Shown: positions 15,952-26,996 of the stretch, piece after piece
Position numbering within the stretch: position 1 is the stretch's first letter
Layout of the letters: every line of letters begins with the position of its first letter
Origin: a virus
Direction: 5' to 3' (one strand)
IMG/VR virus record: IMGVR_UViG_3300011252_000171
Location: 1-30,619 of that record
Length of the DNA stretch: 30,619 bases
Program-made: the position numbers and the translations under genes
Notes under the pieces: generated by a model
Seen by the model: the letters and a program-made list of their open reading frames with translations, nothing else
What the model was told of the DNA's origin: nothing
The model's database searches: none

Positions 15952-16190
15952 TAGTGCACCTCCTTAGGTGGGTCGGAAAACTCAACTAGACCTTTTTCTT
16001 CTAGGAAGTTTTTCCAGAACATTAAAATTAATGATTGATCGGTAATACCGTGTAATTCTTGACAGCCTTGAGCAATCATCGTATCACGTATGACGGAAGC
16101 TAACTCATCGTTAGCTCCCTCATACAATGCTGACCAGACCATGGCTAAAACTTCACCATCGACTAAATATGATTTAGGGTCTCTCGGCAT
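15951..16190 (-). CDS. Hypothetical 79-aa protein
   Basis: Helical, acidic (VDGEVLAMVWSALYEGANDELASVIRDTMIAQG), with a Trp in WKNFLEEKGLVEF. Coupled by TAATG to the DUF932 gene upstream and to the 86-aa gene downstream. No domain recognised. Confidence 0.58.
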   Translation of the reverse strand: MPRDPKSYLVDGEVLAMVWSALYEGANDELASVIRDTMIAQGCQELHGITDQSLILMFWKNFLEEKGLVEFSDPPKEVH

Positions 16191-17224
16191 TATGCAGCCT
16201 CCGCATATTTCACAGCTAAATCTAAGGCTTTAGCTTTACGATTAGCCGCAGCACCAAACCATGAACTATGTAAAGCGTTGCCTTCGGTTACAGACTCACG
16301 TAAATGGTCTTCAACGTAGGTGACAGCATTCAATGCTCCCCACCACGTACCTTTAGCAGACTTCAGGTTTGCACCTGGAGACTGTTCTAGAGCATCGACA
16401 GCAAGAAGTGGAAACTTGTTAAATTTCTCAACAAGAGGTTCTTGCATACCTATCAACTTACCTTCAGCTTTGAGCTGTTGGTCGTGTCTATAAGCAGCAA
16501 TCATATCAGGTTGATAAATATCACCTACAAACTCAAGAAACTGAGAATGTTTAGCTTTCTTCTTAGAGAGTAAGTTTGCAGCTTCTCTAAACTCTGTCAT
16601 ACGTTCAGCAGATAGCCCTAGAGCTTCTTCTGCGATCTGTATAACATCGTCATCGAATGCTTTAACGTGTGGCATACGGAAGGACGCTGTGCCACCGTGT
16701 TGTAAAGCCATCGTTAAAGTGTTGTTGCAAACAACTCTGATAGGTGTCAACTTAATAGTCATTGCTCGACCAACGATATGTGGTTGGTTGATAAGCAAAT
16801 AACCTTTAATAAGGTCGTCACCCGCTAGTTCGAAGTCTTCTGAGATTTTAGCTAAACCCCAAATTTCTCCACCGTCTTTCAAACTACCTGCGGTTTCCAT
16901 GGTCATATGACCAGCATCCGTAAAGCGTTTAAAGAATTTGAATACGTCTTCATTCTGTATAGGGACATAGTCTCTACCACAATGCGATAGTATTCGGTTA
17001 TCGCTATCTCGAACAACGTGGAAGGTATTTTCCGCTTGGATAAGACCAACATCGTCACTCCACTCAGGAGCGTCTATAGTATAACTAGGACGTTTGCTAA
17101 CTGTCCAGTCTAACTGAGCCGCTTTCTGCATTTCAGATGGTTTAAGGTTAGAATCAACCTCGACACCTAATCCGTGCCAAGGTACATCCCCCGTCCAAGC
17201 CATCGTTTCTACTTGGTGTGCCAT
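16190..17224 (-). CDS. DUF932 phage/plasmid-like protein
   Basis: The frame opens at 17248, but ATG 17224 (MAHQVETMAWTGDVPWHGLG) follows a perfect AGAAAGGAG and is the start, giving 344 aa. The opening, with GDVPWHGLG, and the block WTVSKRPSYTID, followed by RVVCNNTLTMALQ, are hallmarks of the DUF932 family found on phages and plasmids. Function is not established; the family is often proposed to be an early DNA-metabolism or regulatory factor. It heads a three-gene operon behind the best consensus promoter of the window. Confidence 0.85.
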   Translation of the reverse strand: MAHQVETMAWTGDVPWHGLGVEVDSNLKPSEMQKAAQLDWTVSKRPSYTIDAPEWSDDVGLIQAENTFHVVRDSDNRILSHCGRDYVPIQNEDVFKFFKRFTDAGHMTMETAGSLKDGGEIWGLAKISEDFELAGDDLIKGYLLINQPHIVGRAMTIKLTPIRVVCNNTLTMALQHGGTASFRMPHVKAFDDDVIQIAEEALGLSAERMTEFREAANLLSKKKAKHSQFLEFVGDIYQPDMIAAYRHDQQLKAEGKLIGMQEPLVEKFNKFPLLAVDALEQSPGANLKSAKGTWWGALNAVTYVEDHLRESVTEGNALHSSWFGAAANRKAKALDLAVKYAEAA

Positions 17225-17290
17225 AATTTTCTCCTTTCTAATGTGCATGGCTGCACTGGTTAATCACGTAGCCTATTAGCTACTTTTATC

Positions 17291-18408: not shown

Positions 18409-18753
18409 CTAGCCCGACCAGTCCCAACCAGTATGTGGAGCGGCTTTTTGGTTATTAGCAATAAGTTTGATGTCTCTTTCTTTTAACCAGTCATCGAAAG
18501 CACGTTTAGTCTGATCGAGGTCATCGTACATTGTTTTAAACTCAGACCATTTGTTTCTAGCAATCTGTGTACCGTAGTAGTAATCACCATCACCGAGTTT
18601 ACAACGTGTAATGATCTGCCACATACGTTGTTTTGTTAAATTATGCTCTCTACCCATTTGTTCTAGAGTCGTAGAGCTCTCTACCCATTGTTCGTACATT
18701 CGTCTGTACTTAATAGAGTATTCTTTAGCTTTTTCTTGTGAGATACCTTTCAT
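18409..18753 (-). CDS. Sigma-70 region-4-like helix-turn-helix protein
   Basis: The frame reaches 18777; ATG 18753 (MKGISQEKAKEYSIKY) overlaps the polymerase stop as ATGA with AAAGGA upstream, so 114 aa. YEQWVESSTTLEQMGREHNLTKQRMWQIITRCKLG resembles the sigma region 4.2 helix-turn-helix (TLEEIG-x-x-x-G/N-V/L-T-x-x-R-V/M-x-Q-I), the part that touches -35 DNA. No region 2 is present. It could alter promoter choice, or it could simply be a small DNA binder. Its operon position after the replicase is typical of nothing specific. Confidence 0.62.
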   Translation of the reverse strand: MKGISQEKAKEYSIKYRRMYEQWVESSTTLEQMGREHNLTKQRMWQIITRCKLGDGDYYYGTQIARNKWSEFKTMYDDLDQTKRAFDDWLKERDIKLIANNQKAAPHTGWDWSG

Positions 18754-20615
18754 TTTATTTCCTTTGTTTCGCCCCATGAACTTCCGAGTTCCTTATCCAC
18801 TAGTAGGGGTACTGCAAGTTCTACACAAGTTTCCATTATTTCTGCAATCTTGTCAGCTTGTTCAGTGTTCTCTACTGAGATATCAACCTCATCGTGGACT
18901 TGTAGGTGAGGAACAATTCCTTCCTCCCACAGACCAAGCATTGCTAACTTCGTCATGTCAGCAGCCGATCCTTGAATCAACCGATTCAGAGCCTTATATG
19001 TATATGATCTTTTTAAATTATCACCGTATTTTTCCTGTGCTTCTTCGTACGGTAGAGGTAGAGTACGTTCATATCTATCTTCCCATAAATTAAACCTACA
19101 ACGTCTACCAGCAAACGTTCGTATATAGCCACGTTCCATGGCTACCCTTGCACACTGATCTTGTAACCCTCGTATAAAGGGAACTTTATTATGATACTGC
19201 TGAAATAACCCCTCAGCTTCCGTATCGTCTATCCCTAGCTCTTTAATAAGCTTTTCTTTACCCATCCCATAGCTAAGTCCTAAATTAATCGTCTTAGCCT
19301 GTTTACGCGGTATATTAGCCATATCTGCAACGATCTGGTGGAAGTCCGCGTTCTTTTCTGTATACTCAACTACCGCATCTTTTGCCCCTGCTAAGTTCAT
19401 TCGATCAGCGTAATGAACAGTAAGCCTTGGCTCTTGTTGTGAATAATCGAATACACCCCACTGACAACCATCCTCTGGAATAAACAAAGATCGTATTAAA
19501 TTACCGATCTCTGGATCTCTTGCAGGAACTTGTTGTAGATTAGGATTACTATAGCTAAATCTACCACTAACCGTGCCGCCACGATCGTTACGCATAGCAT
19601 GAGCTTCTGCGTGTATACGACCATCGAAACAGTGATCTTTAATCATCTTATCGATGAAAGTAGTTCTAGCTTTATTAAGTTTCCTCGCTCGAACAATAAG
19701 TTGTGGTAACTCGTGTTCGTGTCCTTCTAACCAGTCTTTTTGAAAACTAGCCATACCTTTTGCGGTTCTAGGAAACCATATCTTGTTCTTTTCAAAGATA
19801 GCTTCTAACGATGCATTAGCCCATAAATTAACTTCTGCACCATATTTACGTTTAATCTCGACCTGTAGCTTTTGTTCTTCGATCGATAACTTTTTACTAA
19901 CATCGTCAGCTTTTTGTTCATCGATTCTAACCCCTCGCCATCGCATTTCTAACAGTAAAGGAATCAGTCGGCATTCCATGTCGAGTATTTTTTCTAACCC
20001 TTGTTCTTGAACTTCGATTTTTAATTTTTGCCAAAGTTTTAGAGTTAGTGCTGCATCTTGCTCACCATAAGGTCCAACGAACTTAGACGGTAGTTTATAC
20101 ATTTCTGATTTAGGATTTACTCCAAACGATAAAGCAGCGTTTTGTAATAACGATTCATCTTTCTTTTCGTTACAGTAAAACTCACCGAGGTTATCTAAAG
20201 AATAAGAATACCTATTCTCGTTTACTAGGGGAGCCGCCACGATCGTATCTAATATTTTACCGCCTACGTGTACGCCTTCTCTACGGAGCCACCCTACGTC
20301 GTATAAGGCGTTATGAAATATAACGTCTCGCTTTTCCGATGCTAGAGTGTTGCGTAACCAACGTAATACAATATCTTCGTCAAGATTACCTCCGCCTTGA
20401 TGACGGATAGGAAAGTAACCCTTCCAACCCTCTGTCGCAATACCAACACCCACGATATACCCACGACCTGTAGCCCATCCTGGACCACAAGTCATGAGGT
20501 GTGGATCGTAAGTTTCTAAATCTACTGCAATCGTTTCTGTCTCAGAAAACTGAGGAAAGATCTCAGGTATAGACCAGTCACTTGTTGGAGCGAACATAGG
20601 GGTTTGTAAAATCAC
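18750..20615 (-). CDS. polA: Family A DNA polymerase with 3'-5' exonuclease
   Basis: Phage replicase, 621 aa, lacking the 5'-nuclease domain. Exonuclease motifs: VDLET (Asp32, Glu34), HNALYD (101-106), YGEQD (183-187). Polymerase motif A VFDYSQQEPRL (388-398); motif B RKQAKTINLGLSYG (437-450); motif C VHDEVD (573-578). Lys441 and Tyr449 are in place. The residue equivalent to E. coli Phe762 is Leu445, the leucine variant widespread in marine phages. GTG 20615 overlaps the previous stop as GTGA; ATG 20597 (MFAPTSDW) is an alternative. It is in one operon with the thymidylate-synthase and base-modification genes. Confidence 0.95.
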   Translation of the reverse strand: MILQTPMFAPTSDWSIPEIFPQFSETETIAVDLETYDPHLMTCGPGWATGRGYIVGVGIATEGWKGYFPIRHQGGGNLDEDIVLRWLRNTLASEKRDVIFHNALYDVGWLRREGVHVGGKILDTIVAAPLVNENRYSYSLDNLGEFYCNEKKDESLLQNAALSFGVNPKSEMYKLPSKFVGPYGEQDAALTLKLWQKLKIEVQEQGLEKILDMECRLIPLLLEMRWRGVRIDEQKADDVSKKLSIEEQKLQVEIKRKYGAEVNLWANASLEAIFEKNKIWFPRTAKGMASFQKDWLEGHEHELPQLIVRARKLNKARTTFIDKMIKDHCFDGRIHAEAHAMRNDRGGTVSGRFSYSNPNLQQVPARDPEIGNLIRSLFIPEDGCQWGVFDYSQQEPRLTVHYADRMNLAGAKDAVVEYTEKNADFHQIVADMANIPRKQAKTINLGLSYGMGKEKLIKELGIDDTEAEGLFQQYHNKVPFIRGLQDQCARVAMERGYIRTFAGRRCRFNLWEDRYERTLPLPYEEAQEKYGDNLKRSYTYKALNRLIQGSAADMTKLAMLGLWEEGIVPHLQVHDEVDISVENTEQADKIAEIMETCVELAVPLLVDKELGSSWGETKEIK

Positions 20616-20953
20616 TTCTTCTTTTTGATCCTCGTGACTTTAGTTTTCTTAGCTTTTGGCTTTTTTGCAGGAGCTTTACCACCTTCCCAAGCTTCGTTAA
20701 CATCTGGAGTAGACTTATCGTCTGCCTTATATGTTCCTTTTTTCGTTCTAGCTCGTTTAGGATCTTTCTGCACCACTTCATAGATGTTCCCTGCTTTAAG
20801 TTCGTCGTCAAACTTCTTTAAAACAACTTCAGCATCTTTGATTGCTTTTTCAAGAACTTCTTCCTTTACAACTTTCTTAGGTTGTAGTTCTTCTTTTGGT
20901 AAAGGTGTAAAAAATTTAACAAACTTTTTCCACCAACTATCTGTATTACTCAT
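20612..20953 (-). CDS. Hypothetical 113-aa protein with Lys-rich tail
   Basis: N-terminal SWWKKFVKFFTPLPKEE (amphipathic, aromatic) followed by a helical KKVVKEEVLEKAIKDAEVVLKKFDDELKAG, and a C-terminal tail of Lys/Ala/Pro ending KVTRIKKKK. It starts by TAATG overlap and ends by GTGA overlap with the polymerase gene. It may bind DNA or assist the replicase; only charge and position suggest so. Confidence 0.62.
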   Translation of the reverse strand: MSNTDSWWKKFVKFFTPLPKEELQPKKVVKEEVLEKAIKDAEVVLKKFDDELKAGNIYEVVQKDPKRARTKKGTYKADDKSTPDVNEAWEGGKAPAKKPKAKKTKVTRIKKKK

Positions 20954-21300
20954 TAATAATCCTCCTTGCCATCTTCTGCGGCATAATTAACATCGTCAGC
21001 TTCAACGCTAACTTGATTAGTATTAGCTAAAATGTATTCTTCAACTAATAATAAATATCTACGTAAGTCTCGAATATCATCGAGTAAACCTGCTTCGCCT
21101 TTGTAGACTTCACCTGCTTCGAAGATATCCCACCCGTGCTTTTCAGACTGGTGTTCTATACGATCGAACTTACGTGCTAACATCATAAAGGCACCAACAC
21201 CTCCACGACGTCTCCAAGAATCACCGTACGAAGTCTCTGCTCGTTTAAGAGCTTCAAGATCGTTTTGGGCAACTTCTTTCATGTTTTCCCATTTGCTCAT
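20953..21300 (-). CDS. Nmad1/DUF1599-like nucleotide-modification-associated protein
   Basis: The frame reaches 21360 inside the TS gene; ATG 21300 (MSKWENMKEVAQ) overlaps the TS stop as ATGA and is the start, giving 115 aa. Core SYGDSWRRRGGVGAFMMLARKFDRIEHQSEKHG ... GLLDDIRDLRRYLLLVEEYIL recalls the YG-x-S/A-W ... K-x-x-R-I ... D-L-x-x-Y pattern of the Nmad1 (DUF1599) family, predicted to act near modified-nucleotide metabolism. The match is by eye and imperfect. Position directly behind TS and ahead of the replicase fits. Confidence 0.58.
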   Translation of the reverse strand: MSKWENMKEVAQNDLEALKRAETSYGDSWRRRGGVGAFMMLARKFDRIEHQSEKHGWDIFEAGEVYKGEAGLLDDIRDLRRYLLLVEEYILANTNQVSVEADDVNYAAEDGKEDY

Positions 21301-22388
21301 TTGCTTTCTCCTATATCCGCATTGTTTAAAGTATAGGCGGTGTCTCGTTTGCGGATCCACTCAAAACACGCCTCCATCCAATCGAGAGACTTAATAGACT
21401 GTACTTCTCGATACGAATTCAAATAATCTCTTTCTTTATGATAATGAAATGCTTTTAACATAGGCACTGCTACGTCTGGAAAAATATTATTATCCCATTC
21501 GATATCATCTGTTCTTTTTAGCATTTCTTTTGGATTATATCTAAAAGTTTCAAAATAATCGAAGAAGAACCTGACTTCTCTGTTAAAAGAAATAAGGTCA
21601 TTAACAATAGGTACAGGCTCATATTCATCGATAAGATCGTAATGATTTTGTATATGTTTATAGGTGTATACATTTAATTCAATATCTTTAACTTTTTCCC
21701 ACACAGGAGTGTTTGGATAAATATGAAAACTATCACTAATTTGAGTATAATCACCCATCGGTAAATTTAGATTAAGAGCTACGAACTCTTGCAACATAGA
21801 CATATGAACTGCGTTAGCACCATAAGCTCCCCAAAGCATATCGTTAGAACGATTACAAACAGTCATGCATAACTTACCATCACGTACTTTAAAATAAATA
21901 TTCGTATTACAAGGTACGTCTTTTCTTTCAACTTTTTTATTACAAGTTCTCGCTAAATCGTCCTTAGGATCCCACATCTGTAGAACTGCTCGTCTTTCGT
22001 AAGGGTTTTCTTTTAACAAACCGATAATTGCAGCTATTTGATCTTTCTTAAAATAACTTCTCCATCTCCAACCATAAGCTCCCCATAAAGTTTCACCGTC
22101 GTCTGAAAAATCAAACATCGATTTAACAAAATAAGTTAGTGGTTCTAAGTCGTTACGACCATCGAGCATCCATAACCCTTCTATAAAATGAAAAAATGGA
22201 TTAGCGTCTCTTTGTTTTATTAAACAAACTCTTTCCCAAGGTTTTTTGTATACGGTAGCTACAGGTGTCTTAGCTTCATACGTTATACCATTACGACTTT
22301 CCTGTACTCTATATTCAGTAGGGTCTTGAAATAAATCTATACCTTTTTCTAACGCGTCGTTTACGTTTCTTGCATTAATTACTTTCAT
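21297..22388 (-). CDS. Thymidylate synthase homologue (dTMP or 5-hydroxymethyl-dUMP forming)
   Basis: ThyA-fold enzyme, 363 aa (E. coli ThyA 264). Seen: FFHFIEGLWML (64-74), TLWGAYGWRWRSY (100-112), phosphate-binding ERR (121-123), catalytic Cys160 in VPCNTN, RSND (180-183), Asn192 in GAYGANAVHMS, and FHIYPN (221-226). Asn192 matches the residue that reads uracil in ThyA; dCMP hydroxymethylases carry Asp there, so the substrate is probably dUMP. Whether it adds methyl or hydroxymethyl cannot be told from motifs. The neighbouring HMUDK-type protein favours hydroxymethylation. The C-terminal extension after about residue 230 replaces the usual ThyA end. Confidence 0.85.
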   Translation of the reverse strand: MKVINARNVNDALEKGIDLFQDPTEYRVQESRNGITYEAKTPVATVYKKPWERVCLIKQRDANPFFHFIEGLWMLDGRNDLEPLTYFVKSMFDFSDDGETLWGAYGWRWRSYFKKDQIAAIIGLLKENPYERRAVLQMWDPKDDLARTCNKKVERKDVPCNTNIYFKVRDGKLCMTVCNRSNDMLWGAYGANAVHMSMLQEFVALNLNLPMGDYTQISDSFHIYPNTPVWEKVKDIELNVYTYKHIQNHYDLIDEYEPVPIVNDLISFNREVRFFFDYFETFRYNPKEMLKRTDDIEWDNNIFPDVAVPMLKAFHYHKERDYLNSYREVQSIKSLDWMEACFEWIRKRDTAYTLNNADIGESK

Positions 22389-22603
22389 AAGGTGTCTTGA
22401 TAACCTCCTACTATTTCATGTATCACAAAACGAATTTCTTCATCGTTTAACATTGGTACTTTTCTTTTTATAAAAGCTATTGCAAGTCGCTCATCTGCGG
22501 CTACTTTTAGAAAGAAAGCTACCTCTAAAAACTGTGTGTAATGTATATCGATTACATCACCATACTCTTCTAACAACTCTATTACTCTATCACTCATTCC
22601 CAT
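22385..22603 (-). CDS. Hypothetical 72-aa protein in the modification operon
   Basis: Helical: SDRVIELLEEYGDVIDIHYTQFLEVAFFLKVAADERLAIAFIKRKVP. AGGAG lies 9 nt before ATG 22603; a second in-frame ATG follows two codons on. It lies between the HMUDK-like and TS genes and overlaps both, so it is part of the same unit. No domain recognised; might be a subunit or chaperone of its neighbours. Confidence 0.6.
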   Translation of the reverse strand: MGMSDRVIELLEEYGDVIDIHYTQFLEVAFFLKVAADERLAIAFIKRKVPMLNDEEIRFVIHEIVGGYQDTL

Positions 22604-23522
22604 ACTTACTTTCTCCTTCTATTAAGTCTTCCACCATTGGAAGATTATTATGTTTATACACCGATCGTGTTCTTCCCTCGTTTTTATATATTCGAGAATA
22701 TTTATCAAACTCACATAGACCACCTTCGATCTCTCGCATTTCATAATTAGCACCGTTTCTAAAAATAATCGAAGGAGCTAATACTTTCTTTACTTGTTTA
22801 AATAGGTCTTGCATTTCTTCACACCATGGATGGCTTTTACGACTATAGTCTAACGGTCTGCCTGTAAGACGATTAAGTCCTCGCATGGCTCCTGGACCTG
22901 CATTAGCCCAAGTCATAATATCGTTAGCGTTTTCTAATAAATAGGTATGTCTTAAATCAGTAACAACTTCGTAAGCCATAAATGGACCCATGTATGGATA
23001 ATCTCTAAGAATTAACCATGTTGCTTCTAATGAAGATTCACCCTTTACTAAATTCTCATGTAATCTAGATAATATAGATTCTCTAGCTTTCCAAATATGT
23101 GAAACACACTCGGCTACTCCTGTTACTTTATCCATACCGTTTGGTGTTTTAATAATGTAAGCACCCGTGATCCACTTAGGTTGTTTAGTTATTTCATAAA
23201 TAGCTTTCTTTCTATTCCACTTACGTAATAAATCATGATCGATTAAAGTTCTCCCTGTTTCTATTAAATTAAACCAACGGAATATAATCGTAGCCATAAG
23301 AACGTCTTCTTCGTTCCGCATAGGCTCTCTTATATGTGTTCTAAACCAACGTGTTGTACGATCATCTTCTCTAAACACTTGGCAGAACTTAAACTCCTGC
23401 AAAATTGGATCGTCAGTCCAGGGAGGGGAAAGAACTGCAGATTCTTTTTTAATGCGTATCGACTCACGTTCAGTTTGCCAATAGCAATAACGATCCAACT
23501 CTGCGGGAATAAACTCAGTCAT
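22590..23522 (-). CDS. 5-hmdU DNA kinase helical-domain / aGPT-PPlase family protein
   Basis: 310 aa. Family signature elements in order: RYCYWQTERESIRIKK (11-26), SPPWTDDPILQEFKFCQVFREDDR (32-55), a middle helix set, YPYMGPFMAYEVVTDL (175-190), NAGPGAMRGLNR (207-218) and ENxxCEFxKY-like EGGLCEFDKY (266-275). This matches the helix-hairpin-helix-like domain of phage 5-hydroxymethyl-dU DNA kinases (HMUDK), first described as alpha-glutamyl/putrescinylthymine pyrophosphorylases. They activate hmdU in phage DNA for further decoration. No P-loop is visible, so kinase chemistry is not shown by sequence. The pairing with TS and a methyltransferase supports a thymidine-modification role. Confidence 0.8.
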   Translation of the reverse strand: MTEFIPAELDRYCYWQTERESIRIKKESAVLSPPWTDDPILQEFKFCQVFREDDRTTRWFRTHIREPMRNEEDVLMATIIFRWFNLIETGRTLIDHDLLRKWNRKKAIYEITKQPKWITGAYIIKTPNGMDKVTGVAECVSHIWKARESILSRLHENLVKGESSLEATWLILRDYPYMGPFMAYEVVTDLRHTYLLENANDIMTWANAGPGAMRGLNRLTGRPLDYSRKSHPWCEEMQDLFKQVKKVLAPSIIFRNGANYEMREIEGGLCEFDKYSRIYKNEGRTRSVYKHNNLPMVEDLIEGESKYGNE

Positions 23523-24364
23523 TACTTTTTACGTAACACCCAAGAACAGTTATTAGCGACTTCAGGATAAAACGTGGCGGCAACAACTCGTAAAAACTGT
23601 CTACCGTATCTGTTTTGTAATTTTTGAAACTGTTCAGGAGTCCATCCTGTTTCAGAATCTTCTTTCATCGCTTTCTTTAAATTAGGTAATTGTATAAACG
23701 TTCCTGTAACGTCTACTATCTCGAAGTTTCTTTCTAATTCTTCTTTTAGTTCTTGAAACCCCCACTCGTATACGTGATCCTCAGGAAGCTTGTCGTTAGA
23801 ACCATCGTGGTTAGGAGTAGATACAAAAGCTAACCCATTCGGTCGTATAGTTCTAGCAGCATCATCCAACCATGCACTAATAAACTCTCTACCCATATGT
23901 TCTATAACTTCGGTCGTCCAGAAAAAATCTATACTTTCATCTTCTAGTCTAAATAAAGGGTTTACAGTTAAGTCTTGTATACGTATTTCACCATTAAAGT
24001 TTTGAAACCATGTGGATTCAGATAGTTCTCCACCTGCGTTAGACCAAAAAGGATTTTCTAATTCACAAGCAGGATCAATATCGTAACCATAATACGATTG
24101 GATAATATCTGATTTCTTTACAACATAGGCTTTGTATAGATTACGTAAAGCCCAACATTCACCACAACCTACTTCAAACGTATCAAGTGGTCGACCTAAC
24201 CGTTTAGCTTCAGCGATACACATAGAGGAGATTTTATCGAACCGACTCATATGAGCAAGTTCATCAGGTCTCCAGTTTCCTAACACTCCTGCCGAAGCAA
24301 GATCCATTCTAGTATTTTTACTGTCGTTTTCATTAACAGTAAGTTTCTTTCTTATTGATGACAT
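23522..24364 (-). CDS. SAM-dependent methyltransferase (class I)
   Basis: 280 aa. Motif I FEVGCGECWAL (63-73), acidic residue of motif II in GYDIDPA (93-99), post-motif DFFWTTEVIEHMG (146-158) and VSTPNHDGS (181-189), then DHVYEWGFQELKEELE: the Methyltransf_11/23 layout of small-molecule or nucleobase methyltransferases. No DPPY/NPPY of N6/N4 DNA amino-methyltransferases. In this operon it could methylate an intermediate on hmdU, or a side group, which is inference. The stop overlaps the HMUDK-like start closely (shared 23522). Confidence 0.82.
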   Translation of the reverse strand: MSSIRKKLTVNENDSKNTRMDLASAGVLGNWRPDELAHMSRFDKISSMCIAEAKRLGRPLDTFEVGCGECWALRNLYKAYVVKKSDIIQSYYGYDIDPACELENPFWSNAGGELSESTWFQNFNGEIRIQDLTVNPLFRLEDESIDFFWTTEVIEHMGREFISAWLDDAARTIRPNGLAFVSTPNHDGSNDKLPEDHVYEWGFQELKEELERNFEIVDVTGTFIQLPNLKKAMKEDSETGWTPEQFQKLQNRYGRQFLRVVAATFYPEVANNCSWVLRKK

Positions 24365-24369
24365 TTAAT

Positions 24370-24852
24370 TTACCTCCACCAACTTGGTTTAGTTCTACCC
24401 TTTTCCCACTTAGCGTAATGTTTCTCGTTAATAACGTAATTACGATAAGCTAGAACAGAGTCCTCGTTTTTATATTCGTCAGGCATCGCTTGAGCAACTG
24501 GTGTCATAAGACCTCGAGTAATGTTTTTAGGCATTACATATAAGGCGTCTGACAATTTAGCAAGACTTGCATGAGTCCGTTGGTAACGATATGTATATTC
24601 GTTACCTAACGCTATAAAATGTTTATAAAGCCAATAATAGTTACCACTGCATTCTCTAGCCCAGATTGTACAGGGATGGTTCATATAAGCTTTCCTATAT
24701 AACCCTACACTATCTGCATATTCGTCTCCGTCTAATAAACGGTGAGCTGTACAGAGCATCTGTGCGGTTTCTAATGGCATCTTCACTAGCATTTTATCTG
24801 GTTGCGACTTAGCCGCAATCACAGGATCTTCGTTAAAATAGAATATGTTCAT
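24370..24852 (-). CDS. Conserved marine-phage protein, 160 aa, unknown function
   Basis: First gene of the modification/replication operon, with perfect AGAAAGGAG and a family promoter. Opening MNIFYFNEDPVIAAKSQPDKMLVKMPLETAQMLCTAHRLLDGDEY, then NHPCTIWARECSGNYYWLYKHFIALGNEYTYRY, MPDEYKNEDSVLAYRNYVINEKHYAKWEKGRTKPSWW. I recognise this pattern (N-x-F-x-x-D-P-x-x-AA, K-x-LETAQ-x-L, HP-x-x-WAR, EYTYRYG) from many cyanophage and other marine-phage proteins that carry no assigned function. The conserved His/Lys/Arg/Trp residues look catalytic or nucleic-acid-binding. Leading this operon, it is a candidate base-modification partner. Confidence 0.72.
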   Translation of the reverse strand: MNIFYFNEDPVIAAKSQPDKMLVKMPLETAQMLCTAHRLLDGDEYADSVGLYRKAYMNHPCTIWARECSGNYYWLYKHFIALGNEYTYRYQRTHASLAKLSDALYVMPKNITRGLMTPVAQAMPDEYKNEDSVLAYRNYVINEKHYAKWEKGRTKPSWWR

Positions 24853-24924: not shown

Positions 24925-26421
24925 TCACATTTGATAGCAGCGTGTTGTTTTAGGCTCTATCAAATACAGGTTTTCTTTTGTTCTTGTAATACCCACATAG
25001 AATACTCTATTTTCCTCATCAGGGTTTTGTTGATAATTTTTATAAACTCTTGTAGTTATATCCGTAAGTAATACAACGTTGGTAGCTTCTCCACCTTTAG
25101 CCGCATGGATTGTAGATAATCTAATACGTGGTTGTTTAGTAATCTTTTCTCCTCTACGTAGCATGGCTCGTATGTAACTAATATCTTTAGGACTTAATAA
25201 GGTAAAAACATCATACCAATGACCATCAGGCAAGTCTGGAAGATGACTTTTAAGATCTTCGTACTGTAAAACTAAATCAGTATCTAATAAATCAAGTTTC
25301 TTAGGTGTTTTAACTTTGATATATTTTAGAATGTTTGCACATTCAGCCAAGGTTACTGTTTGACCTTTACGTAATCGTTCCCAATAGATAACTGCTCTAA
25401 CCTTTGCCTCTGAAATAGACGGTCGACCTTTAACTTCGAAAAACCATCCTTCGTTTCTACAATACTCATCAACGCTTTCTAATAAATAATTTGTTCTAGC
25501 TAACACTAACCACTCACCTTGATCCATGTTTACCTGTTCTATCGTAGCTTCCCAACGTACCAAACCTTCATCTGTTCTAGGTTTCCATTCTTTATAAATA
25601 CGCGAACCTACTTGACCTATACATCGACTAGCAACTTTATGTACAGAAGACGGTACTCGATAAGATTGTTTTAGTATCATAGCGTCGGTAGAATTTTTTA
25701 TCAAATACTCAACATCCGCTCCCGCCCAACGATAGATTGCTTGGTCGTCATCTCCTGCGACGTATATCTTTTTGGCTTTTTCTGCTAACTTACGCACCAC
25801 CGCCCACTGCAAAGGAGAAAGGTCTTGTGCTTCGTCTACGAACATAACATCTAATACAGGTACATCACCATCAACTAAAAAGTTTTGTAACATATCTGTA
25901 TAATCAACAAGCAACCGATCTTCTTTAAATAACTTCAATCCTCGAGCAAAACGTTCTAGCTCAAACCAACCAACCGCATCTTCAACCTCGTGCCACTGTT
26001 CTTTTAGTGGCACGTCTCTCATCCTAGCTAAGTTTTCTATAAAGGCTAGACGATCATCATGAGTCATACCGAATAAATGACCATCATCGGAAGTTGTCCT
26101 ACCTGTAAGTTTTAAATTAAGTTTTTCGTTTAGGTCTGATATGTCTGAATTACTTACTACGCTTTCTCTAGTAAGTCCTAGTTGTCTAAAAGCTAATGAA
26201 TGTAGAGTACGGAAAAATGGCAGTTGTTTATTAGTAATACTAAAACGATTCATGGCTCTTTCTTTACCTTCGTTTACTGCTTTTTTAGTAAACGTGAAGA
26301 AACCAATACGTTCAGGTTCAGTACCGTTTTCTAGTTCGTCTTCGATTAAGCCAAGGAGTGTGCTAGTTTTCCCTGTTCCTGGAGGTCCAAGGATCACTTG
26401 CGTATGGCTAGGTAAGGTCAT
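24925..26421 (-). CDS. UvrD/Rep-like superfamily 1 DNA helicase
   Basis: 498 aa. Walker A GPPGTGKT (12-19), Ia FFTFTKKAVNEGKERA, Walker B FVDEAQD (194-200), motif III GDDDQAIYRWAG (223-234), motif IV/V region LSTIHAAKGGEATNVVLLTD near residue 434, motif VI RVFYVGITRTKENLYLI near 471. All SF1A motifs are present, so an active 3'-5' helicase is expected; it is shorter than UvrD (720) because the 1B/2B insertions are reduced. It acts in replication or recombination. ATGA overlap with the AlkB-like gene; last gene before the next promoter. Confidence 0.92.
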   Translation of the reverse strand: MTLPSHTQVILGPPGTGKTSTLLGLIEDELENGTEPERIGFFTFTKKAVNEGKERAMNRFSITNKQLPFFRTLHSLAFRQLGLTRESVVSNSDISDLNEKLNLKLTGRTTSDDGHLFGMTHDDRLAFIENLARMRDVPLKEQWHEVEDAVGWFELERFARGLKLFKEDRLLVDYTDMLQNFLVDGDVPVLDVMFVDEAQDLSPLQWAVVRKLAEKAKKIYVAGDDDQAIYRWAGADVEYLIKNSTDAMILKQSYRVPSSVHKVASRCIGQVGSRIYKEWKPRTDEGLVRWEATIEQVNMDQGEWLVLARTNYLLESVDEYCRNEGWFFEVKGRPSISEAKVRAVIYWERLRKGQTVTLAECANILKYIKVKTPKKLDLLDTDLVLQYEDLKSHLPDLPDGHWYDVFTLLSPKDISYIRAMLRRGEKITKQPRIRLSTIHAAKGGEATNVVLLTDITTRVYKNYQQNPDEENRVFYVGITRTKENLYLIEPKTTRCYQM

Positions 26422-26996
26422 AAACCACTTCTAAAAGTTAAATTAACTCTTTCTTCTGCTCCTACTAAATCAGGAACAGCATGAGTAGCTTTCATCTGTG
26501 AGTATCCATCGAACATAATTACATCACCGTGATCAAGAAGATATAACTTCTCATCTTTTATAAAATTTTCCTTAAAATCTACATCACTGGTATTTGTATG
26601 TCGTTTTATATTATTTTGATAAGTTCTCCAAGCAAAAACTCTAGGTGCACCAAAACTTAAAGAAACAACCACGTCATCAAGAGTAGGTACAGTATCGCTG
26701 TGGTGTGGTATACCTTTATCATCAGGATAAAAACCACATAAACAAAAAGTAAATTTGATTTCTTTATCGAAAACTCTGGAAGCTACATCTTCTGCCGCAA
26801 CCTTGATTAATTGCATTTTATGAGTCCATGGTTCAGGTTCATATAACTTACCTGCATAATTAAAAGTTGAATCACCAAACCCACGAGTCGGTCGACCTTT
26901 AACCATCGTGCCTTCGAACATACGTTCACGAGGATCGTCCCACTTATCTATTCCGTGCTCAAACTCTGCAAATATATGTTTGATATGTTTAATCAT
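26418..26996 (-). CDS. AlkB-like Fe(II)/2-oxoglutarate dioxygenase
   Basis: 192 aa. Double-stranded beta-helix motifs: FCLCGFYPDDKGIPHHSDT with His99-x-Asp101, DHGDVIMFDGYSQMKATHAVP with distal His172, and RVNLTFR (Arg183, Arg189), the AlkB R-x-N-L-T-F-R signature for 2-oxoglutarate. Bacterial and phage AlkB proteins oxidise N-alkyl lesions on DNA or RNA. Here it lies between a primase and a helicase in the early operon, so it may repair phage DNA or take part in base metabolism. ATGA overlaps on both sides. Confidence 0.88.
   Translation of the reverse strand: MIKHIKHIFAEFEHGIDKWDDPRERMFEGTMVKGRPTRGFGDSTFNYAGKLYEPEPWTHKMQLIKVAAEDVASRVFDKEIKFTFCLCGFYPDDKGIPHHSDTVPTLDDVVVSLSFGAPRVFAWRTYQNNIKRHTNTSDVDFKENFIKDEKLYLLDHGDVIMFDGYSQMKATHAVPDLVGAEERVNLTFRSGL

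Follow-up and report, generated by a model that had tools for sequence, protein, structure and literature searches.

A HEN1-like methyltransferase in place of the kinase partner in a putative 5-hydroxymethyldeoxyuridine-decorating cassette of bacterial viruses

The DNA analyzed here, referred to as the window, is a virus record of 30,619 bp from IMG/VR (IMGVR_UViG_3300011252_000171), in which seven co-directional genes on the minus strand are found between the genes of a UvrD helicase and a family A DNA polymerase (PolA). Three of the seven encode a class I S-adenosylmethionine (SAM) methyltransferase (MT), a protein of the HMUDK_hel / aGPT-PPlase1 family (HEL) and a thymidylate-synthase homologue (TS). 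Beside HEL, where other phages carry a P-loop kinase of 5-hydroxymethyldeoxyuridine (5-hmdU) in DNA, the window carries MT, and this replacement recurs in related loci. The positions of all features are collected in Table 1. The cassette genes agree in coordinates and strand with the initial annotation, a reading of the letters alone that had described a co-directional cassette in the replication operon, and all of the genes it listed are present. The constant core of the cassette consists of MT, HEL, TS and PolA, and the remaining genes vary among loci. The group carrying the MT cassette is made up mostly of marine viruses of bacteria.

Table 1 Cassette genes and surrounding features of the window (aa, amino acids).
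Feature	Position	Strand	Match or other basis
AlkB-like 2-oxoglutarate-Fe(II) oxygenase	26418-26996	-	PF13532 8e-18; between primase and UvrD
UvrD-type helicase	24925..26421	-	PF00580 2.8e-30; cassette lies between UvrD and PolA
Promoter-like element, 9-base inverted repeat (CTTTACTTT / AAAGTAAAG) before TATAAA	24889..24918	-	Conserved across the window's clade
160-aa pyrimidine dimer DNA glycosylase relative (Pyr_excise), dispensable	24370..24852	-	PF03013 28.5 bits against a cut-off of 23; phrog_624 1.7e-56
MT, HEN1-like class I SAM methyltransferase, 280 aa, probable finishing enzyme	23522..24364	-	1-base overlap with HEL; Methyltransf_23 7.1e-8
HEL, HMUDK_hel / aGPT-PPlase1 protein, 310 aa, probably recognition of 5-hydroxymethyluracil in DNA or base presentation	22590..23522	-	PF18723 1.5e-41
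72-aa protein	22385..22603	-	No Pfam or phrog match; missing in several relatives
TS homologue, 363 aa, probably dUMP hydroxymethylase (Cys160, Asn192)	21297..22388	-	phrog_5131 5e-103; PF00303 6.3e-20
115-aa protein, near-constant HEL companion in MT loci	20953..21300	-	No family match above cut-off
113-aa Lys-rich protein, variable	20612..20953	-	No Pfam match
PolA, family A DNA polymerase with 3'-5' exonuclease	18750..20615	-	PF00476 7.5e-62, PF01612 1.2e-9
DUF932 protein	16190-17248	-	PF06067 4e-42

A near-twin record of 65,538 bp (L327/G065) matches the window with 99.94% and 99.83% identity over two blocks spanning window bases 238-30619, with cassette proteins that are 100% matches to the window's. 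Searches with another ten of its proteins yielded lysozyme, nuclease, SNF2 helicase, terminase, capsid or no match. In six more distant relatives (L073, L075-L079), identity to the window is 78-80% for MT, 62-63% for HEL and 55-56% for TS, MT being the most conserved of the three. The window's terminase (TerL) has 50-58% identity to the corresponding proteins of HTVC023P, HTVC027P, 023Pt_psg01 and DSL-LC04. In DSL-LC04, UvrD and PolA overlap directly with no cassette between them, and in HTVC027P and 023Pt_psg01 the interval holds small genes only. As these three carry no cassette at that place, it should be considered a block that is either present or absent at the UvrD-PolA junction.

The PF18723 profile matches the 310-aa HEL protein, a match on which the initial annotation had staked its assignment of this protein to the HMUDK/aGPT-PPlase helical-domain family, and HEL also matches phrog_2396 (4.8e-62). 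In the IMG/VR loci found with HEL, MT was located directly upstream, at most 166 bases away, in 79 of 80, the remaining locus (L031) being a contig that starts 46 bases before HEL. When a distant MT was used as the query instead, HEL was found at most 250 bases downstream in 79 of 80 loci, and the remaining contig ends in MT. These two sets share contigs and, therefore, are not independent samples. With both MT clades and the window taken together, MT and HEL are separated by -60 to +10 bases in 101 of 109 loci and by 146-206 bases in the other eight, three of which (L206-L208) contain an open reading frame (ORF) of 72-78 aa between the two genes. The place immediately upstream of HEL is taken in phages M6 and PaMx11 by the gene of a P-loop protein annotated as 'terminase small subunit'. 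PF18748, the 5-hmdU DNA kinase family, matches this protein in M6 at 7.7e-18 and in PaMx11 at 0.002; the PaMx11 kinase and HEL genes overlap by one base, as do MT and HEL in the window.

Partners were labeled by BLAST to named queries within 4.5 kb of HEL or across the whole locus. Among 238 HEL loci, which include repeats (some contigs appear two or three times) and contain 181 distinct HEL sequences, 109 carry MT, 76 the kinase, 44 a glycosyltransferase and 13 no identified partner, as is the case for L154, L232 and L145/L282. MT overlaps with neither the kinase nor the glycosyltransferase, and the latter two occur together in only four loci (those of the GT236 label, which was given by BLAST and not by Pfam comparison). 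The kinase beside HEL is thus replaced by MT. In a tree of 106 HELs (227 sufficiently long sequences reduced to those less than 90% identical, built by a quick method and with several long branches), the partner labels require at least nine changes, the well-supported branches alone forcing fewer, and the MT rows fall into two supported groups of 31 and 11. The glycosyltransferase class is itself diverse. It includes TAGT (PF20691), a set that adjoins a radical SAM enzyme and in some cases a cytidylyltransferase, and another that adjoins a PIG-L-like protein; GT153, GT140 and GT187 have no Pfam match and were labeled from the look of their sequences.

Several of these other HEL loci are worth describing in their own right. 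In L187, L189, L190 and L198, HEL is accompanied by a SPASM radical SAM enzyme (tested in L187) and a protein resembling glycosyltransferases, with L190 and L198 also carrying a cytidylyltransferase-like protein (a cupin fusion, tested in L198); this system is possibly another undescribed thymidine modification. In L140 (the same contig as L256), a glycosyltransferase-like and a PIG-L-like protein, the latter scoring 27.7 against a cut-off of 28.2, stand in for the kinase of a cassette that otherwise resembles that of M6; this system may place an amino-sugar on 5-hmdU. In L176-L184 and L153, a UvrD helicase adjoins HEL, TS, the 115-aa protein and a glycosyltransferase-like protein of 445 aa; L176 carries an FkbM-type methyltransferase, and ORFs of similar size are seen in its sister loci, while L153 is labeled as a Cytophagaceae metagenome-assembled genome (MAG) and looks like a phage contig. 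Distant HEL relatives (22-26% identity, or short matches) occur in L159-L175, mostly Patescibacteria-type MAG contigs, with no kinase and mostly no TS recognized adjacent.

The enzymes usual in M6-type systems were also sought across MT-type records, which may be incomplete genomes. PF18748 found no kinase in any of 47 MT-type records and recovered all three control phages, the PaMx11 and Epa5 kinases weakly (about 1e-4). A kinase profile of 15 sequences found none in 33 MT-type records (42-84 kb; 25 belong to the above 47 as well) and none in seven glycosyltransferase-type records, and found all five kinase-type records, three of which had supplied profile sequences. The same profile found no kinase in six further MT-type records, including the near-twin, where the M6 control was found. 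The amino acid:DNA transferase (ADDT, PF18724) was found in none of 47 and none of 14 MT-type records, with the controls recovered (3/3, and M6, respectively), and TAGT in none of the 33 above cut-off (one stray sub-threshold match), with all three TAGT-type records found. Likewise, the initial annotation had noted that no P-loop kinase, radical SAM enzyme, pyridoxal phosphate (PLP) enzyme or acyltransferase accompanies the cassette, and none is seen among those cassette proteins that have a family match, the 72-, 115- and 113-aa proteins having no match above cut-off. These results bear on the idea that the canonical amino-acid pathway operates, with a diverged kinase and a transferase elsewhere in the genome and MT methylating the attached amino acid. 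The window is, after all, a genome fragment, and diverged kinases can be missed, as the weak detection of the PaMx11 and Epa5 kinases by the Pfam model indicates; with a profile that does find kinase-type records and finds nothing in 33 and six MT-type records, the near-twin among them, and with ADDT equally missing from its 47 and 14, we nonetheless consider this explanation very unlikely. HEL was also tried as the kinase itself, the activating role that the initial annotation gave to HMUDK-type enzymes of known phages, and rejected: it contains no P-loop and also sits with glycosyltransferases.

As proposed in the initial annotation, MT is a SAM methyltransferase, matching Methyltransf_23 and presenting a class I methyltransferase fold in its AlphaFold2 model (predicted local distance difference test score, pLDDT, 83.6). 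A profile of 36 MTs matched ten PDB chains at an E-value of 0.001 or lower, the best at 2.1e-6. The best chains were 3jwi and 3jwg ('methyltransferase type 12'), which we take to be Hen1; five of the ten are named as such, three as Hen1/HEN1 and two as small-RNA 2'-O-methyltransferase, and the remaining chains are two tellurite-resistance (TehB-type) proteins and one other. By sequence, the MT profile matches Hen1 structures above other methyltransferases. In addition, E152, E155, H156 and H197 of MT fall on the EVIEH and DH residues of Hen1 in the alignment, the metal ligands of HEN1, and all four are invariant in 129 of 129 full-length MTs (97 distinct; five of 134 were left out for length), with the HEL-linked and AXL3-type groups (the latter described below) counted together. 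The MT model superimposes on HEN1 (3htx_D) with a Z of 16.9 and a root mean square deviation of 2.8 over 187 residues. From its sequence, MT resembles HEN1, which is a metal-dependent O-methyltransferase whose relatives act on nucleic acids. A conventional base-N or C5 DNA methyltransferase was considered for MT and rejected, as no DPPY/NPPY-type or PCQ motif was seen by eye and Pfam gives only general class I families. Among 50,697 phage records, five hold a relative of the window's MT at an E-value of 0.01 or lower, all of AXL3 type, and a second-clade MT query found four records; a viral scan with the MT of ct3Et533 as query gave no match.

The HEN1 likeness raises the question of whether MT might be a true HEN1-like RNA 3'-end methyltransferase, engaged in RNA repair or host takeover and unrelated to DNA bases, since its closest solved relatives are small-RNA 2'-O-methyltransferases. 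We regard this as quite improbable, as MT is paired with HEL and TS and, in a distant second group, with pyrimidine hydroxymethylases (24 of 25 loci), and as the cassette's family matches include no Pnkp-like partner.

This second group is the AXL3 type, for which we examined phage AXL3 and 25 further loci (PW916, two environmental genomes and 22 IMG/VR contigs). MT is followed by a pyrimidine hydroxymethylase within 6.5 kb in AXL3 and in 24 of the 25, the twenty-fifth (L112) ending first. Most of these loci also carry an NTP-pyrophosphatase, a nucleotide kinase and a dCMP deaminase, and HEL was found in none of the 26 AXL3-type records, the M6 control being found. As the MT family adjoins Asp-type hydroxymethylases in records that lack HEL, the target shared by all MTs is most simply a 5-CH2OH group. 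According to PMC7504290, 2 of the 37 enzymes tried cut AXL3 DNA, and the sites of both consist of A and T only. This restriction pattern fits a change at cytosine and does not by itself implicate MT.

The same group provides the main argument for a different order of events, in which MT acts on the mononucleotide. The base would then be finished before the polymerase inserts it, with 5-hmdUMP converted to 5-methoxymethyl-dUMP, and HEL would have another task, such as protecting or checking the modified DNA. AXL3-type phages possess MT without HEL (0/26), and the nucleotide kinase and NTP-pyrophosphatase that mostly lie adjacent are what a nucleotide pathway predicts. In HEL loci, however, every contig of sufficient reach shows MT together with HEL, and MT occupies the position of a kinase that acts on DNA; HEN1 relatives also act on nucleic acids. 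Methylation of the free nucleotide is thus unlikely, if the least so of the alternatives considered here.

For TS, the closest solved relatives are CMP 5-hydroxymethylases (8.8e-22), followed by true thymidylate synthases (from 9.2e-12). The initial annotation's TS homologue with a uracil-reading Asn192 is borne out, both by the PF00303 and phrog_5131 matches and by the alignment, in which Asn192 corresponds to the thymidylate-synthase Asn and to Asp in the CMP hydroxymethylase 5b6d. In a comparison that comprised 179 distinct sequences, residue 192 is Asn in all 216 HEL-linked TS homologues (280 aa or longer) and Asp in all 24 of the AXL3 type. HEL goes with uracil-type TS homologues and MT with both the Asn and Asp types; therefore, the common feature is the C5 hydroxymethyl group. 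An ordinary thymidylate synthase, with plain T in virion DNA and the neighboring genes doing something else, would suit the TS fold and Asn192, both of which are compatible with dUMP. Given that the closest solved relatives are hydroxymethylases, that HEL, a marker of 5-hmdU systems, is adjacent and that sibling phages without the cassette show no TS at the UvrD-PolA junction, we attach little credence to this possibility. As little should be attached to the proposal that TS makes 5-hydroxy-dUMP rather than 5-hydroxymethyl-dUMP, from which MT would give 5-methoxy-dU. There is precedent in PMC13390438, where a TS-superfamily enzyme of RB69-type phages makes 5-hydroxy-dCMP; the window's TS is, however, about 41% identical over 98% to the enzymes of M6-like phages, whose modified T is derived from 5-hmdU according to PMC6449724 and PMC9476957.

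Turning to the role of HEL, its predicted model (pLDDT 85.9) is all-helical. In a fold comparison by VIA-align, the best 46 rows are HhH DNA glycosylases, DUF2419 and PaMx11 gp46, at Z 6.1-10.8, after which Z drops to 2.5, and searches of the PDB with both HEL (phmmer) and a HEL profile gave no convincing relative of known structure. As a base-flipping fold is common to systems with three different chemistries, the model suggests a recognition role for HEL towards 5-hydroxymethyluracil (5-hmU) in DNA. HEL may also have a catalytic role, as PaMx11 gp46, a glycinyltransferase, is an enzyme with a similar fold.

We infer that the cassette decorates 5-hmdU, with the HEN1-like O-methyltransferase in place of the P-loop 5-hmdU DNA kinase and 5-(methoxymethyl)-dU as the product. 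TS would convert dUMP to 5-hmdUMP, as its family and residues indicate; cellular kinases and PolA would then place 5-hmdU in DNA in place of some or all T, as in M6-type phages. HEL, given its DNA-glycosylase-like predicted fold and the company it keeps, would bind and present 5-hmU in DNA, and MT could transfer the SAM methyl group to the exposed CH2-OH, with the metal held by E152, E155, H156 and H197. The resulting 5-(methoxymethyl)-dU would be small, neutral and closed to phosphorylation, and would mask the DNA from restriction enzymes. We consider this the best explanation of the cassette, one that stands about an equal chance of being right or wrong. The wider proposal, that the phages carry 5-(methoxymethyl)-2'-deoxyuridine, that HEL is a general subunit presenting 5-hmU in DNA to swappable transferases (kinase and amino-acid transferase, mutually unlike glycosyltransferases, or HEN1-like MT) and that the AXL3-type MT makes 5-(methoxymethyl)-dC, is put forward somewhat more tentatively. 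The initial annotation's central claim, a thymidine-modification cassette built on 5-hmdU in the replication operon in which the known finishing enzymes are not found, is supported.

Some observations weigh against the proposed explanation and should be considered when referring to it. The fold comparison ties many class I methyltransferases at Z 16-18 and does not single out HEN1, MT has a sub-threshold match to UbiG, and EVxEH-type motifs occur in small-molecule O-methyltransferases as well. The likeness of HEL to glycosylases is modest, its best Z of 10.8 being lower than the roughly 13 advised for helical proteins and its best Foldseek E-value being 1.0. A single origin would be compatible with the MT groups of the HEL tree, so that the many MT loci do not count as independent events. 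Sites resistant in AXL3 include some that contain no T, which means that C or G is changed there, and the resistance could be caused by other genes. Finally, PMC6449724 reports, as unpublished, that the purified M6 5-hmdU DNA kinase acts on DNA; if it does so alone, HEL may not be essential to its partner in vitro.

The other genes of the cassette are less constant. The initial annotation had assigned the finishing step to MT and/or the 160-aa protein, which it had listed as of no recognizable family. MT is the likely finisher. The 160-aa protein matches PF03013 above cut-off as well as phrog_624, and it was rejected as a finishing enzyme, being of the Pyr_excise family and not found in 58 of 102 MT loci in which UvrD is visible upstream; it is present in the other 44. 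In 31 of the 58, the gap between UvrD and MT is shorter than 150 bases, and the other 27, all of the second MT clade, hold other ORFs there, which the profile of the 160-aa family does not match. A phmmer search of the PDB with the 160-aa protein gave no convincing relative. The catalytic residues of DenV are Thr2 and Glu23; the 160-aa protein starts with M-N and not with M-T. The 115-aa protein is found in 104 of 109 MT loci, 10 of 10 GT153 loci, 19 of 23 TAGT loci and 4 of 72 kinase loci, although the contrast with the latter may be inflated, as the flanks of many kinase loci do not exceed 5 kb. Among named phage proteins, the best match of the 115-aa protein is one from Pam3 with the annotation 'nucleotide modification' (56% over 45%), and its role is perhaps in nucleotide-pool control. 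The label 'Nmad1-like' given to it initially is not supported by Pfam (E<=1) or NCBIfam (E<=0.1), neither of which gave a match to Nmad1. The 72-aa gene was not found between HEL and TS in, for example, L035-L039 and L044, and the 113-aa gene was not found in some relatives, such as L021, L053 and L057.

The promoter proposed initially at the head of the cassette has indirect support. The word TTTACTTT is found directly after UvrD in 73 of the 74 UvrD-cassette gaps of the window's clade, CTTTACTTT in 67 and both arms of the repeat (CTTTACTTT and AAAGTAAAG) in 45, and the word and the arms are kept also where MT follows UvrD directly. The element was found in none of the 27 loci of the second MT clade. 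A simple consensus scan found 15 promoters where 19.6 would be expected by chance, hence no excess, and this element is not among them; the best support for the promoter, if indirect, is therefore the conservation of TTTACTTT. Outside the cassette, the AlkB-like oxygenase is far more variable (48-100%) than the neighboring genes, and in L073 and L075-L079 it lies elsewhere on the opposite strand, while the DUF932 protein is conserved downstream of PolA across the window's clade wherever the locus extends that far.

If the proposed explanation is true, a simple new DNA base is predicted, with MT, HEL and TS as a minimal set of three genes, and HMUDK_hel, named as a 'kinase domain', becomes a module common to several systems, in which the chemistry depends on the partner. 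For many uncultured phages, the modified base could then be predicted from one adjacent gene. The cultured phage AXL3, whose DNA resists restriction for unexplained reasons, is a candidate for the cytosine version. In a search limited to open-licence papers of PubMed Central (PMC), we found no report of a methoxymethyl-dU base or of the MT-HEL pair, nor of the HEN1-like nature of the partner or its near-exclusive pattern. The initial annotation had regarded the combination of genes as not previously described; no description of the MT partner was found in this search, and the pairing of TS and aG/PT-PPlase1 near PolA is known from PMC9599517.

When the cassette is compared with known systems, MT has profile similarity to the HEN1 small-RNA 2'-O-methyltransferase and shares its EVIEH...H pattern, but differs from it in being found in a base-modification context. 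The AXL3 / PW916-type cassette contains the same MT family, with all 13 residues tested in common, but it lacks HEL, its hydroxymethylase has Asp at position 192 and its MTs are only 23-27% identical to the HEL-linked ones. Systems that combine HEL with TAGT or other glycosyltransferases share HEL, TS, often the 115-aa protein and a similar adjacent UvrD with the window, and have a sugar transferase in place of MT. In uncultured pelagiphages of the HTVC023P type (the terminase of HTVC023P itself being related to that of the window, as described above), PMC9599517 places the same two genes, TS and aG/PT-PPlase1, close to PolA, with a putative glucosyltransferase in some; an MT partner is not mentioned there, the word 'methyltransferase' not occurring in the main text. 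The M6-like cassette is listed in the SN1 paper (PMC9476957) as hydroxymethylase, Nmad5, aGPT-PPlase1, kinase, radical SAM enzyme, PLP enzyme and aGPT-PPlase2. The M6 / PaMx11-type hypermodification thus has in common with the window the TS-type hydroxymethylase, the HMUDK_hel protein, the place before PolA and the order of partner, HEL and TS. The window differs in that no amino acid:DNA transferase, radical SAM, PLP or FAD enzyme is matched in its cassette, the 115-aa protein is added and a HEN1-like MT stands where the kinase does.

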